This document shows, one piece after another, positions 13,693-60,646 of a stretch of 64,000 bases of DNA. This DNA comes from Geomonas paludis. GTDB taxonomy: Bacteria; Desulfobacterota; Desulfuromonadia; Geobacterales; Geobacteraceae. The stretch's first letter is position 1, and every line of letters starts with the position of its first letter. The position numbers and the translations under genes were made by a program. The stretch covers positions 1,049,033-1,113,032 of the forward strand of contig NZ_BLXY01000001.1 of the NCBI RefSeq assembly GCF_014193585.1, given 5' to 3'. The notes beneath the pieces are model-generated. The model saw only the letters and a list, made by a program, of their open reading frames with translations, was not told the DNA's origin and searched no databases.

Positions 13693-13837
13693 CTGGCTCT
13701 ATTAGCAGACGGTGTTGGTGTCGCAGAAGGGACTGGCTCCGTTAGGTGCCTGTCCCTTTTAGCGGAACGCTCTTTTCAGCTCAGCCACCAATGGGACAGG
13801 CACCTGGCGGAGCCAGTCCCCTCGCTAATAGAGCCAA
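13693..13837. repeat. composite inverted-repeat element, copy 1 (clpB leader)
   Basis: Outer inverted ends TGGCTCTATTAGC (from 13694) and GCTAATAGAGCCA (to 13836) enclose two inverted arms. The left arm is at 13729-13757 (GGGACTGGCTCCG...AGGTGCCTGTCCC) and the right arm at 13793-13821. The core between them reads GCGGAACGCTCTTTTCAGCT. It is the fullest copy of the family. Confidence 0.85.
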
Positions 13838-13849
13838 AGTCCTAGAAGA

Positions 13850-13878
13850 AGATAGGGAGGGGAGGGGGGCGTGTCAAG
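13850..13878 (-). promoter_or_regulatory. candidate RpoH (sigma-32) promoter for clpB
   Basis: On the minus strand CTTGACA (13872-13878) is followed after 14 bases by CCCTATCT (13850-13857), close to the CTTGAAA-N13-15-CCCCAT-T heat-shock consensus. The predicted transcript starts near 13843. Confidence 0.68.
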
Positions 13879-13910
13879 GTGCGGGGCGGTTTTTACCCAC
13901 AAGCATTAAG

Positions 13911-13938
13911 GGGACAGGCACCTGGCGGAGCCAGTCCC
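13911..13938. repeat. composite element, solo arm
   Basis: A single arm, GGGGACAGGCACCTGGCGGA then GCCAGTCCCC, preceded by AAGCATTAAG. It has no facing partner or core. The rest of 13677-14070 contains no gene. Confidence 0.75.
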
Positions 13939-14070
13939 CTCGCGGCAGGGCTTGTAGTGCGCGGCAAGATATGGCATTATCCGGCAGCGTAACAGAGCGG
14001 TGCTCGCAACGGTTGGCGCATATCGGTAGGTGCCGGTAGCGACGCTGTGAGGCCTGCAGGGGAGCTGCAG

Positions 14071-14637
14071 TTGGCAAAGTTGAATCGCGACGACAACGGC
14101 ATTGGTGCCGAAGACAATCCGGACGCCGAGGTGGAACTGGACCTTGCGCCAGAGGACGAACTGGATGACGACCTCGACCTTGCGGCGGACGAGCATCTCT
14201 TCTACGGCGACGATCCGGAGAAACTCCTCGATGACGATGAGGACGACGGCGAGGAACTGGTCTGGGACGCCGACGAGCTAGCGAAGCCCGTCGTTGCCAC
14301 GCCCGGATGCGCCGTCAGTTTCTTCGTGGACAACAAGCGCCACCACGCCATCTGTCTCGCCGTAATCGGTGACGAGGTGCTCCTCGAGCACAAAGACGCG
14401 ACCAAGTGCTTCCTGTTCATCGGCAAGATAACGGAGATCGTGCCGCGCATCCGGCGCGGGGTCGTCTCCGCCACCATCACCGTCGGCGCCTTAAAGCGCT
14501 GCCGTTACCGGTCCGTTCCCAAGAAGTGGCTCCAGGAGATGATCAAGGCGGGCCTGTCCTGGAAGGGTGTCGAGGGGCCGGGCAAAGTGGCGCCCGCTCC
14601 CGGCGAGCTCCTCAGGGGGCAGATGGAATTGTTCTGA
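14071..14637 (+). CDS. Hypothetical acidic protein with conserved-looking C-terminal domain
   Basis: About 188 residues. The first 70 are extremely acidic (EDELDDDLDLAADE, LLDDDEDDGEEL) and look disordered. The remaining part is basic and folded-looking (GCAVSFFVDNKRHHAICLAV, then a short beta-rich stretch and VPKKWLQEMIKAGLSWKGVEG). I do not recognise the family. I chose the TTG at 14071 because GGGGAG lies six bases upstream; an in-frame GTG at 14047 would add eight residues. It lies between clpB and ilvE on the opposite strand to both. Confidence 0.6.
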   Translation: MAKLNRDDNGIGAEDNPDAEVELDLAPEDELDDDLDLAADEHLFYGDDPEKLLDDDEDDGEELVWDADELAKPVVATPGCAVSFFVDNKRHHAICLAVIGDEVLLEHKDATKCFLFIGKITEIVPRIRRGVVSATITVGALKRCRYRSVPKKWLQEMIKAGLSWKGVEGPGKVAPAPGELLRGQMELF

Positions 14638-14665
14638 AGCTTGGTGTTGAGGCTCTTCGGCTAGT

Positions 14666-14779
14666 CCCCCTCTCCCCCTGGGAGAGGGTGCCCAACGGGC
14701 GGGTGAGGGCGCTGCCACGAAGTTAATAGCTTGCATCTGCCGACGCCCTCACCCTGCCCTCTCCCGGAGGGAGAGGGGA
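14666..14779. repeat. REP-like repeat pair
   Basis: Two inverted members of the CCCTCTCCC / GGGAGAGGG family, with the GCCCAACGGGCGGGTGAGGG tail in the left copy, facing each other across AGTTAATAGCTTGCATCTG. Confidence 0.65.
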
Positions 14780-14806
14780 TGTGGCGCAAAAGCATGTATA
14801 TCGGAA

Positions 14807-14845
14807 ACAAAAAGGGGACAGGCAAAAGTAGCCTGTCCCCTTTTC
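14807..14845. terminator. bidirectional intrinsic terminator before the ilvE 3' end
   Basis: Inverted repeat AGGGGACAGGC / GCCTGTCCCCT is flanked by A-runs on the left and T-runs on the right, so it can stop transcription both ways. It is 20 bp past the ilvE stop. Confidence 0.82.
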
Positions 14846-14865
14846 TTTTTTCTGCCGGCTTGTAG

Positions 14866-15939
14866 TTACTTCACTTTCCTGATCCAGCCGAACTTGTCTT
14901 CGATCTTGCCGGTCTGGATGCCGGTCAGGGTGTCGTACAGGGTCTGGGTGTGCTTGCCGACGCCGCCGTTGCCGACATCTACGGTCTCACCGGCATAGTG
15001 GAGCGTGCCGACCGGGGTGACCACGGCGGCGGTGCCGCTGCCGAAGGCCTCGGTGATCTTGCCGCTCTTCAGGTCCTGCATCAGGTCGTTCACGTCGATC
15101 TTGCGCTCCTCGACCTTGAGCCCCATGGACTTGGCCAGGGTCAGCACGGAATCGCGGGTGATGCCGTGCAGGATGCTCCCCTCCAGCGGCGCGGTGACGA
15201 TGGTGTCGCCGTAGGCGAAGAACATGTTCATGGAACCTACTTCCTCGATGTAGCGCTTGTGCACGCCGTCCAGCCAGAGCACCTGGTCATACCCCTTCTT
15301 CTTGGCTTCCAGGCCGGCCTTCAGCGAGCTGGCGTAGTTGCCGCCGGTCTTGGCTTCGCCGGTGCCGCCGGGGGTGGCGCGGACGTACTTGTCCTCGACC
15401 ATGATCTTGACCGGGTTGAAACCGGCGGCGTAGTAGGCGCCTACCGGGGAGAGAATCACGTAGAAGTAGTAGTGGTCCGAGGGCTTGATGCCGACGTGCG
15501 GTTCCACCGCGATCATGGCGGGACGGATGTAGAGCGACGTCCCCTCCGAACCCGGCACCCAGGCGCTCTCCAGGGCGACCAACTGCTCGATCCCTTTCAC
15601 GAAGAGTTCCTCGGGAACTTCCGGCATGCAGAGCCGTTCGGCAGAATGGTTGAAGCGACGGGCGTTCATCTCCGGGCGGAACAGCGCGATGGTGCCGTCG
15701 GCCCACTTGTAGGCTTTCAGCCCCTCGAAGATTTCCTGCGCGTAGTGCAAAACAAGCGCCGCGGGGTCGATCTGGAACGGCTCGTACTTCTTGATGCGGC
15801 CGTCGACCCAACCCTGCCCGGCTTTCCACTCGACCAGCAGCATGTAGTCGGTGAAAATCCTCCCGAAGCCCAGCTGCGACTCGTCGGTATACTTGGCCTT
15901 CTTCTCCCCCTCGCTAATAGGTATTACCCTGATCTCCAT
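14866..15939 (-). CDS. ilvE: Branched-chain amino acid aminotransferase
   Basis: A 357-residue PLP-dependent class IV transaminase carrying out the last step of valine, leucine and isoleucine synthesis. The length and layout fit the longer BCAT type (about 360 aa) rather than the 300-residue E. coli IlvE. The PLP-lysine region is GEAKTGGNYASS near 205, and VLWLDG and YIEEVGSMNMFF follow as in BCAT_beta proteins. GGAGG nine bases upstream supports the ATG. It is divergent from rpoH and appears monocistronic. Confidence 0.95.
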   Translation of the reverse strand: MEIRVIPISEGEKKAKYTDESQLGFGRIFTDYMLLVEWKAGQGWVDGRIKKYEPFQIDPAALVLHYAQEIFEGLKAYKWADGTIALFRPEMNARRFNHSAERLCMPEVPEELFVKGIEQLVALESAWVPGSEGTSLYIRPAMIAVEPHVGIKPSDHYYFYVILSPVGAYYAAGFNPVKIMVEDKYVRATPGGTGEAKTGGNYASSLKAGLEAKKKGYDQVLWLDGVHKRYIEEVGSMNMFFAYGDTIVTAPLEGSILHGITRDSVLTLAKSMGLKVEERKIDVNDLMQDLKSGKITEAFGSGTAAVVTPVGTLHYAGETVDVGNGGVGKHTQTLYDTLTGIQTGKIEDKFGWIRKVK

Positions 15940-16055
15940 GTGGCAGAACCTCCGGTTTTTCGGCGCCAGGCGTCGCTTATTTGGATCTTTTCGTTTACCA
16001 CATTCGCAGCGGCAGGCGCAAGTAATTTAACCCCCGTAAATTCACGGGCATCCCC

Positions 16056-16084
16056 TTGATTTTTTGCATGCGACTTGTTATATT
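16056..16084 (+). promoter_or_regulatory. sigma-70 promoter of rpoH
   Basis: TTGATT (16056-16061), a 17-base spacer, then TATATT (16079-16084). The expected transcript start near 16091 falls inside the CIRCE operator just downstream. Confidence 0.75.
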
Positions 16085-16086
16085 TG

Positions 16087-16113
16087 TTAGCGCTCAAGAG
16101 TGGAGAGTGCTAA
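16087..16113. promoter_or_regulatory. CIRCE operator (HrcA binding site) of rpoH
   Basis: TTAGCGCTC, nine bases, GAGTGCTAA: one mismatch from the canonical CIRCE element TTAGCACTC-N9-GAGTGCTAA. It begins three bases after the -10 box, so bound HrcA should block initiation. Confidence 0.92.
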
Positions 16114-16154
16114 CAGCAGTAGGCAAAACCAGCACTCACAAGGGAGAGATCGAC

Positions 16155-17006
16155 ATGACGCACGCAATGCCGGTACCTATAGACAGCCTTACCCTCTACC
16201 TCACGGAGATCAACCGTTTCCCGCTTTTGTCGGCGGATGAGGAGATGGATCTGGCCTGCAGGTTCCGCGACGAGGGGGACCTGGAGGCGGCACACAAGCT
16301 GATCACCTCGAACCTCAGGTTTGTCGTGAAGATTGCCGGGGAGTACCGCTCCTACGGGATGAAGATGCTGGACCTGATCCAGGAGGGGAACGTCGGCCTG
16401 ATGATGGCGGTCAGGAAGTTCGACCCCGCCAAGGGGGTCCGTCTCATCTCGTACGCCGTGTGGTGGATCCGGGCGTACATCCAAAACCACATCATCTCGG
16501 CCTGGAGCCTTCTGAAAATCGGCACCACCCAGGCGCAGAGGAAGCTCTTCTTCAAGCTGAACCAGGCCAAGCAGGCCATCATCAACATGACCGGAGAAGG
16601 TGACCTGCACGCGGCGGCAATATCGCTGGACGTGAAAGACACCGAGGCGCAGGAGATGGAACAGCGCCTGAGAGGCGAGCTCTCGCTGGACGTGGAAATG
16701 TTCGAAGGGGAGGGGGCGACCTTCCTGGAAAGCCTGCCCGACCTGCGCCAGAACCAGGAGGAAATGCTGGCCGAGCGCCAGGAGAGCAGCATCCTGGAGC
16801 AGACGGTGGCCAGCGCGCTGGAACAGCTGAACGAGAAGGAGCGCTTCGTCATCGAGCACCGCGTCTCGGCGGACCAGCCGCTTACCCTGCAGGAGATCGC
16901 CGACCACTTCTCCATCTCCCGCGAGCGGGTGCGCCAGATCGAGGAAGGCGCGCTCAAGAAAATGAAGCGCTTCCTGACCCCGCTGGTCCTGGAGCAGGCG
17001 GCATAA
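16155..17006 (+). CDS. rpoH: Heat-shock sigma factor RpoH (sigma-32)
   Basis: A 283-residue group 3 sigma factor that directs RNA polymerase to heat-shock promoters. Region 2 is intact (NLRFVVKIAGEYRSYG, LIQEGNVGLMMAVRKFDP, SYAVWWIRAYIQ). The RpoH box is present as TQAQRKLFFKLNQ, close to QRKLFFNLR of E. coli RpoH. Region 4 ends SISRERVRQIEEGALKKMKRF. GGGAG eight bases before the ATG at 16155 fixes the start. The gene has its own sigma-70 promoter under a CIRCE operator. The probable clpB target promoter lies 2.2 kb away. Confidence 0.96.
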   Translation: MTHAMPVPIDSLTLYLTEINRFPLLSADEEMDLACRFRDEGDLEAAHKLITSNLRFVVKIAGEYRSYGMKMLDLIQEGNVGLMMAVRKFDPAKGVRLISYAVWWIRAYIQNHIISAWSLLKIGTTQAQRKLFFKLNQAKQAIINMTGEGDLHAAAISLDVKDTEAQEMEQRLRGELSLDVEMFEGEGATFLESLPDLRQNQEEMLAERQESSILEQTVASALEQLNEKERFVIEHRVSADQPLTLQEIADHFSISRERVRQIEEGALKKMKRFLTPLVLEQAA

Positions 17007-17016
17007 TGGAAAACAA

Positions 17017-17046
17017 GGGGACTGGCTCCGCAAGGTGCCTGTCCCC
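17017..17046. repeat. composite element, solo arm after rpoH
   Basis: GGGGACTGGCTCCGCAAGGT then GCCTGTCCCC, starting ten bases after the rpoH stop codon. Confidence 0.75.
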
Positions 17047-17057
17047 CTTCGCTTGAA

Positions 17058-17091
17058 GGGCGGCTTCCCTGCTGGGAGCCGCCCTTTTTTG
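17058..17091 (+). terminator. intrinsic terminator of rpoH
   Basis: Stem GGGCGGCTTCCC / GGGAGCCGCCC with loop TGCT, followed by TTTTTT. Confidence 0.88.
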
Positions 17092-17095
17092 CTTT

Positions 17096-17211
17096 GGCTC
17101 TATTAGAGGGGACTGGCTCCGCCAGGTGCCTGTCCCCCTAATGCTTGTTGAAGGTGGCTGAGCTGAAAGGAGCGTTCCGCAGAGGGACAGGCACCTAACG
17201 GAGCCAGTCCC
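17096..17211. repeat. composite inverted-repeat element, copy 2
   Basis: GGCTCTATTAGAGG leads into the left arm (17108-17137). The core is GGCTGAGCTGAAAGGAGCGT-TCCGC, the reverse complement of the copy 1 core. The right arm is 17184-17211. It fills the gap between the rpoH terminator and the PPIase gene. Confidence 0.83.
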
Positions 17212-17220
17212 TTCCTCCCG

Positions 17221-46962: not shown

Positions 46963-46980
46963 TTGCAATGGACAGCAGAA

Positions 46981-47083
46981 GGGACAGGCTCCGTCAGGTG
47001 CCTGTCCCTCTTGCGGAACGCTCCTTTCAGCCCTGCCACCCGCAAGGTAGTAGGGGGACAGGCACCTAGCGGAGCCAGTCCCC
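46981..47083. repeat. composite inverted-repeat element, copy 4
   Basis: Left arm 46981-47008 (reads GGGACAGGCTCCG at its left end, a variant), core TTGCGGAACGCTCCTTTCAG in copy 1 orientation, right arm 47054-47083. A C/G-rich stretch follows to about 47128. With the two terminators this accounts for the 46899-47216 gap. Confidence 0.82.
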
Positions 47084-47156
47084 TTCCTTGATCCCCCCTC
47101 CTCAGCGGGAGGGGGGGAGGAACCCTTCCGGCGGGCTAGTCTGGCCCTGCATACGC

Positions 47157-58437: not shown

Positions 58438-60459
58438 ATGAAGAAATTCCTGGATCGGATCGCGCAGGGGGTGCTGATCGGCGACGGCGCCATCGGCACC
58501 ATGCTCTACGCCAAGGGGGTGGCGCCGGAGGCGAACTTCGAGCACCTGAACCTGGTGCGCCCGGAACTGGTGCTGGAACTGCACCGCGAGTACGTGGCCG
58601 CCGGTGCGCAGGTGATCGAGACCAACACCTTCGGCGCCAACTGCGCCAAGCTTTCCGCTATAGGCCTCGGTGGCAAGGTCGCCGAGATCAACCGCAAAGG
58701 CGCCCAACTCGCCAGGAGCGCCGCAGACGGGCACGACGTCTTCGTGGCCGGCTCCATCGGCCCCCTGGGGCGCGGCAAGAGCGACCTCGCGCCGGAGCAG
58801 ATCACGGAATGTTTCCGGGTGCAAGCGGCGGCGCTGGCCGAGGGCGGGGTGGACCTCCTGATCCTGGAAACCTTCTCCGAACTGGACGAACTCCTGGTCG
58901 CCCTGTCCGCTGCCAGGGAGACCGGACTTCCCGTGGTCGCCAACCTCGCCTTCGGTGAGGGGGGGCGGTTGCCGGGAGGTACCTCCGCCGAGGGCGCCGC
59001 GCGTGCGCTCGCCGCTGCCGGCGCCGACATCGTGGGCGCCAACTGCGGCGCCGGACCGCTGGAGTTGCTGGCCACCGTCAAGCGGATCGCTGCCGCCTGC
59101 TCGCTGCCGCTGGCCGCCTATCCCAACAGCGGCTTCCCCGAGTACATCGACGGCCGTTACATCTACCGCACCACCCCGGAGTACTTCGCCGATCGCGCCG
59201 AGGAACTGGTCGCCGCCGGGGCCTCCCTGGTGGGCGGCTGCTGCGGCACCACCCCCGAGCACATCCGCGCCATGGCCGCCAGGATGCAGGGGAAAGTGGC
59301 AGGTGCCGCGCCCTCACCCCTGACCCCTCTCCCGCCTGCGGACCGAAGCCCTTCGGTGGGCGGAGGCCCGGAGGGCGAGGGGGAACTGACCGCCGCGCAA
59401 CCCCTCTCCCCCCGGGAGAGGGTGCCCGAAGGGCGGGTGAGGGCGCTGCCACGCAGCGAGAGCGCTGCCGCTAGCGAAGCCCTCACCCCCAGCCCCTCTC
59501 CCGCCTGCGGACCGAAGCCCTACGGTGGGCGAAGGCCCGAAGGGCGAGGGGAGCTTCAGTCAAGCTTCCTGGACCGTTGGGGTGCAGAGCCGGTGATCAC
59601 CGTGGAGCTCGACCCGCCCAAGGGGCTCGACTGCGCGAAGGTGCTAGCGGGGAGCCGGGCGCTCAAGGAGGCCGGCGCCCATGCCATCAATTTGGCCGAG
59701 AACCCGCTGGCCCGCGTGCGCATGGGAAATCTGGCCCTCGCCTCGCTGATACGCCGCGAAGTCGGCATCGAGGTGATCGCGCACGTCACCTGCCGTGACC
59801 GCAACCTGATCGGGATGCAGTCCGAACTGATGGGGGCGAGCCTCTTGGGAGTCACCTCCATCCTCGCGGTCACCGGCGACCCGGCGAGCCTGGGCGACGA
59901 GGCGGGGGCGTCCTCCGTGTTCGATCTGAACTCCTTCACGCTGATCAAGTTGTTGAGCGACCTGAACAGCGGGGTCAACGCCTTGGGCAATCCTATCGGC
60001 TCCGGCACCGGTTTCACCATCGGCGCCGCCTTCAATCCGAACACGCAGAACATGGAAGTGCAGGTACGGCGGCTGGTGAAGAAAGTGGCCAACGGCGCCC
60101 GTTTCGCCCAGACCCAGCCCATCTACGACCTGGCGCGCTTCGAGGACATGATGGAGCAGACCGCGCACCTGGGGATCCCGGTCCTTCCCGGCGTGCTGCC
60201 GCTCGTTTCCGGCAGGAACGCCGAGTTTTTGCACAACGAAGTGCCCGGTATCGTCATCCCCGAGGAGATCCGCAAGCGCATGGCCGGCAAGAGCGGCGAC
60301 GAAGGTGTGGCAGAAGGTCTCGCCATCGCCAGGGAATTCATCGAAGCCGCCAGCGCCAAGGCCGGCGGTTTCTACCTGATCCCCCCCTTCGGCAAATACG
60401 AGATCGCGGTGGAGTTGGTTAAGTTCATAAAAAACAAAGCGGAACACAGAGGACACTGA
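58438..60459 (+). CDS. Bifunctional homocysteine S-methyltransferase / methylenetetrahydrofolate reductase
   Basis: A 673-residue fusion. Residues about 1-290: zinc homocysteine methyltransferase (GDGAIGTMLYAKGVAPEANFE, GANCGAG, GGCCGTTPEHI with the Cys pair). Residues about 385-673: MTHFR TIM barrel (VTCRDRNLIGMQSELMGASLLG, ILAVTGDPASLGD). Together they make methyl-THF and pass the methyl to homocysteine, as in the YitJ-type proteins of about 612 aa. The linker (about 292-371) is encoded by three REP-like repeats. GGGAGG seven bases before the ATG; the stop lies in another repeat. It is the second gene after ppaC. Confidence 0.93.
   Translation: MKKFLDRIAQGVLIGDGAIGTMLYAKGVAPEANFEHLNLVRPELVLELHREYVAAGAQVIETNTFGANCAKLSAIGLGGKVAEINRKGAQLARSAADGHDVFVAGSIGPLGRGKSDLAPEQITECFRVQAAALAEGGVDLLILETFSELDELLVALSAARETGLPVVANLAFGEGGRLPGGTSAEGAARALAAAGADIVGANCGAGPLELLATVKRIAAACSLPLAAYPNSGFPEYIDGRYIYRTTPEYFADRAEELVAAGASLVGGCCGTTPEHIRAMAARMQGKVAGAAPSPLTPLPPADRSPSVGGGPEGEGELTAAQPLSPRERVPEGRVRALPRSESAAASEALTPSPSPACGPKPYGGRRPEGRGELQSSFLDRWGAEPVITVELDPPKGLDCAKVLAGSRALKEAGAHAINLAENPLARVRMGNLALASLIRREVGIEVIAHVTCRDRNLIGMQSELMGASLLGVTSILAVTGDPASLGDEAGASSVFDLNSFTLIKLLSDLNSGVNALGNPIGSGTGFTIGAAFNPNTQNMEVQVRRLVKKVANGARFAQTQPIYDLARFEDMMEQTAHLGIPVLPGVLPLVSGRNAEFLHNEVPGIVIPEEIRKRMAGKSGDEGVAEGLAIAREFIEAASAKAGGFYLIPPFGKYEIAVELVKFIKNKAEHRGH
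59311..59552. repeat. three REP-like repeat units inside the homocysteine methyltransferase/MTHFR gene
   Basis: Units at 59311-59383, 59400-59444 and 59479-59551. The first and third share CCTGCGGACCGAAGCCCTTC-type cores with the unit at 33899-33970; the second is the short CCCTCTCCCCCCGGGAGAGG form with GGGCGGGTGAGGG. All read through in one frame. Confidence 0.9.
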
Positions 60460-60588
60460 GGTTCACAGAGGGCACAGAGAAAGGGTATATGCAAAACCGG
60501 TAATTCCCCCTCGCCCTCCGGGAGAGGGTAGGGGTGAGGGCGTTATGCCTCTGTGACCTCTGTGTACCTCTGGGACCTCTGTGTTCCG
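60441..60588. repeat. nested inverted repeat at the gene end (ACACAGAGG type around a REP unit)
   Basis: GGAACACAGAGGACACTGAG (from 60441) includes the last codons and the TGA of the upstream gene. An inverted partner is at 60549-60588 (CTCTGTGACCTCTGTGTACC then CTCTGTGTTCCG). Between them is a REP-like unit, 60506-60541. This fills the gap before the next gene. Confidence 0.75.
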
Positions 60589-60646
60589 GGTTGCTTTTCA
60601 ACTATTTTGACCTGCATCAATTTCAATAAAGACAAAGGAGCAGATG

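Follow-up and report, generated by a model that had tools for sequence, protein, structure and literature searches.

The two domains of the bifunctional homocysteine S-methyltransferase (HMT)/methylenetetrahydrofolate reductase (MTHFR) of Geomonas paludis, a member of a group of soil bacteria, are joined by a linker built from a multi-copy palindromic repeat, which is translated in frame within one uninterrupted gene (Table 1; the window is the whole 64,000-nt stretch of DNA analysed). As the best reading, and very probably the correct one, the repeat was inserted in frame into a permissive spacer, was tolerated there as a neutral tether and was later remodelled. Cases of repeats turned into protein are often doubtful because they are seen in one genome only. 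Here, 19 related genomes display repeat-free, repeat-bearing, in-frame remodelled and decayed states of the same linker, in a gene whose enzyme domains are clearly under selection.

Table 1. Features of the HMT/MTHFR gene and of related repeat loci (positions in the window unless given as genome:contig:positions)
Feature	Position	Strand	Remarks
Bifunctional homocysteine S-methyltransferase/methylenetetrahydrofolate reductase gene	58438..60459	+	673 aa, uninterrupted
HMT domain	58474..59283	+	residues 13–282, including the GGCCG motif
Repeat-derived inter-domain linker	59311..59552	+	codons 292–371; AlphaFold pLDDT <50 at residues 291–371
Repeat block 1, long B unit, extra front unit	59311..59384	+	shorter related front unit in G010
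Repeat block 2, A palindrome (CCCTCTCC...GGGAGAGGG...GGGTGAGGG)	59401..59443	+	translated LSPRERVPEGRVRA
Inverted-dimer spacer, 36 nt	59444..59479	+	aligns with the spacer of genomic copies; fast-evolving between species
Repeat block 3, long B unit, second half of the dimer	59480..59552	+	translated ALTPSPSPACGPKPYGGRRPEGRGE
MTHFR domain	59587..60333	+	residues 384–632
Single repeat hairpin, intergenic, just downstream of the HMT/MTHFR gene	60506..60542	+	neighbouring comparison
PF00329 (Complex1_30kDa) gene with repeat	G000:C1:529226-530055 (L207)		further loci L288-L301

A repeat-derived linker joins two intact enzyme domains

The gene product belongs to the NF006396 family. It scores 781.9 bits against this NCBIfam model of the bifunctional homocysteine S-methyltransferase/MTHFR (611 positions), above the curated cut-off of 453; the Pfam domains S-methyl_trans and MTHFR are both intact, and C203, C268 and C269 of the HMT domain show no variation across 40 aligned sequences. 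We take these three cysteines to be the zinc ligands of the HMT site. A sequence-only reading of this DNA had claimed that three repeat units are translated in frame as the linker, that the frame stays open with both domains keeping their motifs, and that the protein is longer than usual. The data uphold these claims, and orthologues in 8 of 8 outgroup species, after start-codon trimming, are 605–611 aa long.

The three blocks of the linker consist of one long B unit followed by one inverted dimer, in which an A unit and a second B unit are separated by a spacer. Our alignment of 29 copies, 28 of them from elsewhere in the genome, reveals that this A–spacer–B inverted dimer is the usual unit among them, and the spacer can be aligned as well as the arms, so that homology spans the whole dimer. 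By eye, the A arm is free of stops in five of its six frames, and the frame used in the linker gives a hydrophilic peptide rich in Pro, Arg, Glu and Ser. The AlphaFold2 model, built on a 40-sequence alignment, has a mean pLDDT of 83.6, with 441 of the 673 residues at or above 90 and only two segments, residues 291–371 and 482–493, below 50. Its pTM is low (0.52), in keeping with two domains joined by a loose tether. Foldseek matched the model to methionine synthase and betaine-homocysteine methyltransferase chains, with MTHFR chains lower down; together with a PDB search it confirmed the domain folds and returned nothing beyond them.

Distribution of the linker within and beyond the genus

Orthologues were taken from all 19 genomes of the GTDB genus, comprising 11 species of Geomonas proper and 8 outgroup species (G004, G005, G009, G012, G014, G015, G016 and G017); G. 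paludis itself is G000. In all 19, a single open frame runs from HMT through MTHFR without a stop inside the MTHFR-domain match, and the gene is thus not split into two proteins. A clear repeat linker is present in 9 of the 11 species of Geomonas proper and in none of the 8 outgroup species. The repeat-free linkers are short and uniform: the distance from GGCCG to TVELDPP is 57 in all eight outgroup species, compared with 74–121 in the nine species with a clear repeat (74 in G002 and G018; 77 in G001, G006 and G013; 86 in G007; 89 in G011; 101 in G010; 121 in G000). Within the clade, the two species without a clear repeat have offsets of 61 (G003) and 72 (G008). Against shuffles, the G008 linker scores z 5.6 and 7.0 in alignments to the G007 and G010 repeat linkers, respectively, so that a decayed repeat is more probable there than a clean loss; the G003 linker gives a weak signal against repeat linkers (z 0.4–3.9). 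A single-genome oddity or an assembly error is ruled out, the linker being found in nine assemblies, two of which (G011 and G018) are single-contig.

In a tree built from both domains with the linker left out, and rooted at its midpoint, the 11 species of Geomonas proper cluster with support 100/100. The repeat label requires three changes on this tree, compared with an average of 6.5 for shuffled labels, and the tree is compatible with one gain and two losses. The starred branches alone force at least two changes, and an open symbol (86/87) marks the fork that joins the G000 sub-clade of eight species. To speak of "one insertion" is to simplify, because the front units of G000 and G010 and the scattered B forms need repeated changes or exchange.

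The linker is not common to many genera on the evidence of 80 loci, 76 of which have a parsable HMT motif: the repeat peptide occurs only in L009 and L010, both from Geomonas, and was not seen beyond the genus. Some relatives have long linkers of other composition, with GGCCG offsets of 90 (L045), 123 (L052) and 92 (L078), and the inter-domain site is therefore permissive. The hosts of these three loci, outside the genus, are Thermobacillus, Paenibacillaceae and a Bacillota MAG.

In-frame remodelling between species

Across all nine repeat linkers, the dimer begins in the same codon phase and its spacer is 36 nt, and arms and spacer align without gaps. Our pattern search took the second gap as 5 nt in eight of the nine species and as 0 in G010; given the gap-free alignment, the G010 value reflects an alternative match. 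Equal dimer length across the linkers is partly expected from common descent. Among 54 dimers sampled from the G. paludis genome, that of the linker included, spacers range from 28 to 37 nt and total lengths fall into the three phases as 30/12/12.

The linkers differ between species in unit number and in the form of the B unit. The extra front unit of G000 has a relative in G010 with a similar joining peptide (TAAQP and TAAAQP, respectively), and these two species sit on different branches of the tree. The B unit is long in the linkers of G000, G011 and G007 and short in the other six, the difference being 36 nt. The intergenic hairpin just downstream of the gene provides a neighbouring comparison. 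It is present in 5 of the 11 clade species, in the opposite orientation in G010 and, by eye, with a left arm one base shorter in G002. In the species that have it, its arms too look closely similar by eye, pointing to arm conservation as a property of the repeat itself.

The repeat family and its copies

With 3 mismatches at most, a 30-mer of the A arm is matched 214 times in the G. paludis genome, compared with 0 for a reversed control pattern; the repeat nature of the linker is therefore not due to chance. Each of the other 18 genomes of the genus has 0 to 132 matches, with the control at 0 throughout. Copy number thus varies from 0 to 214 within one genus (G000, 214; G002, 60; G007, 4). Across a sample of 197 further genomes of the phylum, the 30-mer at up to 2 mismatches was matched in just one, and a phylum-wide repeat is unsupported at this threshold. 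A 32-mer representing the long B form matches the G. paludis genome at 14 sites and is matched in 6 of the 19 genus genomes, these being G000, G007, G008, G010, G011 and G018.

By eye, outer arms (TTCCGCTAAT/GGCGGAAG) are present in many genomic copies of the 29-copy alignment and absent from the linker copy. In the subgroup with outer arms (for example L110, L118-L120, L124, L127-L130, L132-L134 and L136), the dimer lies as if within a MITE of ~190 nt. In the same alignment, inspected by eye, the arms end at their foot in neither the GTAG nor the CGTC tag that marks the GTAG/CGTC REP super-families. In kind, it is a protein-coding palindromic element: it is multi-copy, lies between genes and also lies in frame within intact genes.

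We scanned 54 loci covering all 56 Y1_Tnp transposase matches in the genus. The repeat lies within ~1.5 kb at 2 of the 54, and a hand estimate from copy density gives an expectation of ~1.6. At L320, in the G. paludis genome, the repeat is ~0.9 kb from a weak Y1_Tnp match; at L321 (G015:C71:196242-199478), a repeat dimer lies ~140–250 nt to one side of a partial match, in a genome holding 64 copies of the A-arm 30-mer. With all 56 matches covered, neither locus has the repeat on both sides of the Y1_Tnp gene. A RAYT-driven REP (REPtron) is thus unsupported, since the repeat is no commoner near Y1_Tnp than by chance and flanks none on both sides. L321 offers one lead towards RAYT-type mobilisation.

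Repeat codons in a second gene

The repeat family had been thought to lie only between genes outside the linker. This does not hold, as an A arm at G000:C1:529626 is in frame near the N terminus of a PF00329 (Complex1_30kDa) protein, in a frame (LSPRERVPEGRVR) identical to that of the linker. The PF00329 gene was found in 14 of the 19 genus genomes searched. Seven of these 14 carry repeat-derived codons as judged by eye, clear in G000, G001, G002, G010 and G018 and degraded in G003 and G007; the gene is repeat-free in G004, G005, G006, G009, G011, G013 and G014. The repeat codons sit between a shared VA(A/S)A segment and a shared start, which comprises AGGAG followed by ATG with codons for Ser, Thr or Asn and for Asp. 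The true start may lie further downstream of the repeat codons. On this evidence, insertion of the family into two or more genes of this clade is probable. In G002, the PF00329 gene also contains an in-frame heptapeptide run (MTDCTET, MTDCAET, MPDCAET).

A census of coding copies considered the 87 exact 30-mer copies among the 214 matches, 86 of them testable (L262 is too near a contig end). A stop-free frame crosses the repeat in 25 of the 86, and by codon-usage score the linker alone is coding-like on both flanks. Likewise, 7 of the 54 sampled dimers have a stop-free frame across them, and the linker alone is coding-like on both sides. The score overlooked the PF00329 gene because its upstream flank lies outside the gene; this case came from inspecting the six next-best copies by hand, and the census is a lower bound. 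Of 81 long open reading frames listed through repeats in the G. paludis genome, the 12 inspected by eye are wrong-frame or antisense, or the repeat precedes the true start. The genes of the last kind presumably include one UvrC and one radical-SAM protein.

Selection on the domains and on the linker arms

When 36 pairs from the nine species with the repeat are pooled, dN/dS comes to 0.094 in the HMT domain and 0.100 in the MTHFR domain, compared with 0.62 in the linker, the last value being based on 48 shared columns that include a few flanking codons. Values of about 0.1 show that purifying selection on both domains is strong. By codon position (1/2/3), mean differences amount to 0.059/0.038/0.333 in HMT and 0.056/0.034/0.315 in MTHFR. 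The spacer gives 0.258/0.220/0.407, the A arm 0.079/0.115/0.079 and the first half of B 0.049/0.052/0.028. The pattern in the arms is unlike protein-level conservation. Across the nine species, a set picked for recognisable arms and hence biased towards conservation, third positions vary at 6 of 22 sites in the arms, the domains having 399 variable sites of 547 (Fisher p 1.7e-5), and codons for invariant amino acids vary in 3 of 13 and 310 of 429 cases, respectively (p 4e-4). Removing G007, which has the most worn arm, enlarges the contrast (3/22 versus 384/547 third positions). The scarcity of synonymous change in the arms suggests conservation as DNA or RNA rather than as protein, and is left unexplained by pure neutrality.

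One account, possible but less likely than not, is that selection maintains the linker arms for their nucleic acid, the peptide being a by-product. An mRNA hairpin slowing ribosomes or shaping mRNA decay between the domains, or a DNA site for a chromosome protein, would be examples of such a role. This agrees with both codon-level contrasts and with the freedom of the spacer to vary, its third-position mean being 0.41 as compared with 0.08 and 0.03 in the arms and 0.32–0.33 in the domains. It also agrees with the G011 linker, which retains a perfect 30-mer in a genome where no more than 10 matches exist, its own among them. In folding, the RNA of the linker outperforms each of 200 shuffled versions (z −3.5), but good folding is inherent to the whole repeat family and is expected of palindromic repeats generally. 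Against selection of this kind, the sampling by recognisable arms itself favours conservation, the arms have been lost in G003 and G008 with the gene retained, and the A arm differs from the 30-mer by 4 mismatches in G007 and by 2 in G018. Moreover, a T-to-G change (G001, G006, G011 and G013) or a T-to-C change (G018) in the left A arm breaks a stem pair, by eye, without compensation.

Alternatively, copies elsewhere in the genome would homogenise the arms through gene conversion or re-insertion, which we consider unlikely on present evidence. Some species do hold tens to hundreds of donor copies, and long-B linkers (G000, G007 and G011) occur only in genomes with long B matches elsewhere, but G010 and G018 have short-B linkers despite long B matches in their genomes. 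Arm decay tends to accompany few copies, although the correlation is not significant (Spearman −0.53, p 0.09, n=11). Subtypes of the A arm give a mixed picture of concerted evolution. In G001, G006 and G013, whose linkers have a G-type A arm, exact G-type matches number 18, 11 and 6, compared with 21, 19 and 10 of the T-type; the A arm of G018 is a third subtype. The G011 linker argues against homogenisation, since it is G-type in a genome with 1 exact G-type match, which is the linker itself, and 6 T-type matches. Far less probable than either is that the repeat separates two proteins, by internal initiation in the linker or premature ending, with the domains acting apart. The end of the B unit is purine-rich (GAGGGGAG) and, by eye, the A arm has in-frame GTG codons, but no internal stop occurs in any of the 19 genomes and the frame is kept in all nine repeat linkers.

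Proposed origin of the linker

Insertion into a permissive spacer, with tolerance and later remodelling, is the reading that we favour. The data show the presence of the repeat, its frame, its spread across the clade, the selection acting on the domains and the predicted disorder, and the single insertion and its manner are what we infer. In the last ancestor shared by Geomonas proper, an inverted dimer (A, 36-nt spacer, B) would have entered the inter-domain spacer and taken the place of most of the previous linker. The insert would have lengthened a disordered tether with harm to neither domain; that a longer tether would be harmless follows from the five stop-free frames among the six of the A arm and from the hydrophilic peptide in the frame used. 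We infer the neutrality of the tether because of its predicted disorder, the range of linker lengths among relatives and the high dN/dS of the linker. Later in-frame remodelling would account for the unit numbers and the short or long B forms, 36 nt apart, that vary by species, and the repeat would have decayed in G008 and become no longer clearly recognisable in G003.

As a speculative extension with a modest chance of being right, the translated arms may still be a working nucleic-acid element, held without regard to codons by selection or homogenisation while the spacer drifts. If so, the HMT/MTHFR gene would carry a regulatory or chromosome-organising repeat within its coding sequence, and the addition or removal of units would tune the length of the tether together with a second, nucleic-acid function. 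Entry into the PF00329 gene in the same frame would then represent a recurrent route to new peptide segments in Geomonas.

Relation to known systems

Rickettsia palindromic elements (RPE) are reportedly the subject of Ogata et al. 2000. This work is cited in PMC3767692 and PMC5896051, and RPE are described in PMC3767692 as high-copy palindromic DNA in frame inside intact genes, at an insertion site common to orthologues. The Geomonas repeat is likewise high-copy, palindromic and in frame in an intact gene, at a site shared by orthologues. The likeness to Rickettsia put forward in the sequence-only reading is thus apt as a resemblance in kind. The bacteria are different, the copies of the Geomonas repeat that we examined yielded only two genes, and the linker holds a dimer with an extra unit in G. 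paludis. Closer precedents come from Geobacter bemidjiensis (PMC2996986) and from intragenic REPs (PMC3733652).

Intragenic REPs with GTAG or CGTC tags are described in PMC3733652 as singles, dimers and clusters inside genes of several bacteria, with clusters encoding 43–82 aa in Thauera and R. conorii, and flexible linkers or loops are proposed there as sites that tolerate them. The Geomonas dimer similarly lies within a gene at an inter-domain linker. It is distinct from the tagged REPs in that its arms carry no GTAG/CGTC tag and show no above-chance association with Y1_Tnp. The main text of PMC3733652 does not mention "Geobacter".

The multicopy sequences of Geobacter bemidjiensis (PMC2996986) are a precedent for repeats read into proteins, and G. 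metallireducens has a heptanucleotide repeat family within genes (PMC2700814). The hosts of both are related to Geomonas, but the in-gene elements of G. metallireducens are heptanucleotide repeats, unlike the Geomonas palindromes; the passages on multicopy sequences in these two sources do not name the HMT/MTHFR enzyme. Our literature search, which did not extend to subscription papers and supplements, found no report of an HMT/MTHFR repeat linker and none on Geomonas palindromic repeats. Repeats read into proteins are a known but uncommon phenomenon, Geobacter included, to which the Geomonas linker adds a new case. It provides a testable example of interdomain linkers arising from repeat DNA, in which the codon-blind conservation of the arms could tell protein-level from nucleic-acid-level selection.

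Other repeats in the window

At 60440–60600, the last codons of the HMT/MTHFR gene and the region beyond hold another inverted repeat (CACAGAGG/CCTCTGTG), and the C-terminal tail EHRGH therefore looks repeat-derived in G. paludis. A separate repeat family (GGGGACTGGCTCCGCCAGGTGCCTGTCCCC; families D4 and D6) occurs in both orientations at 13726–17216, 43954 and 46978–47087 of the window.
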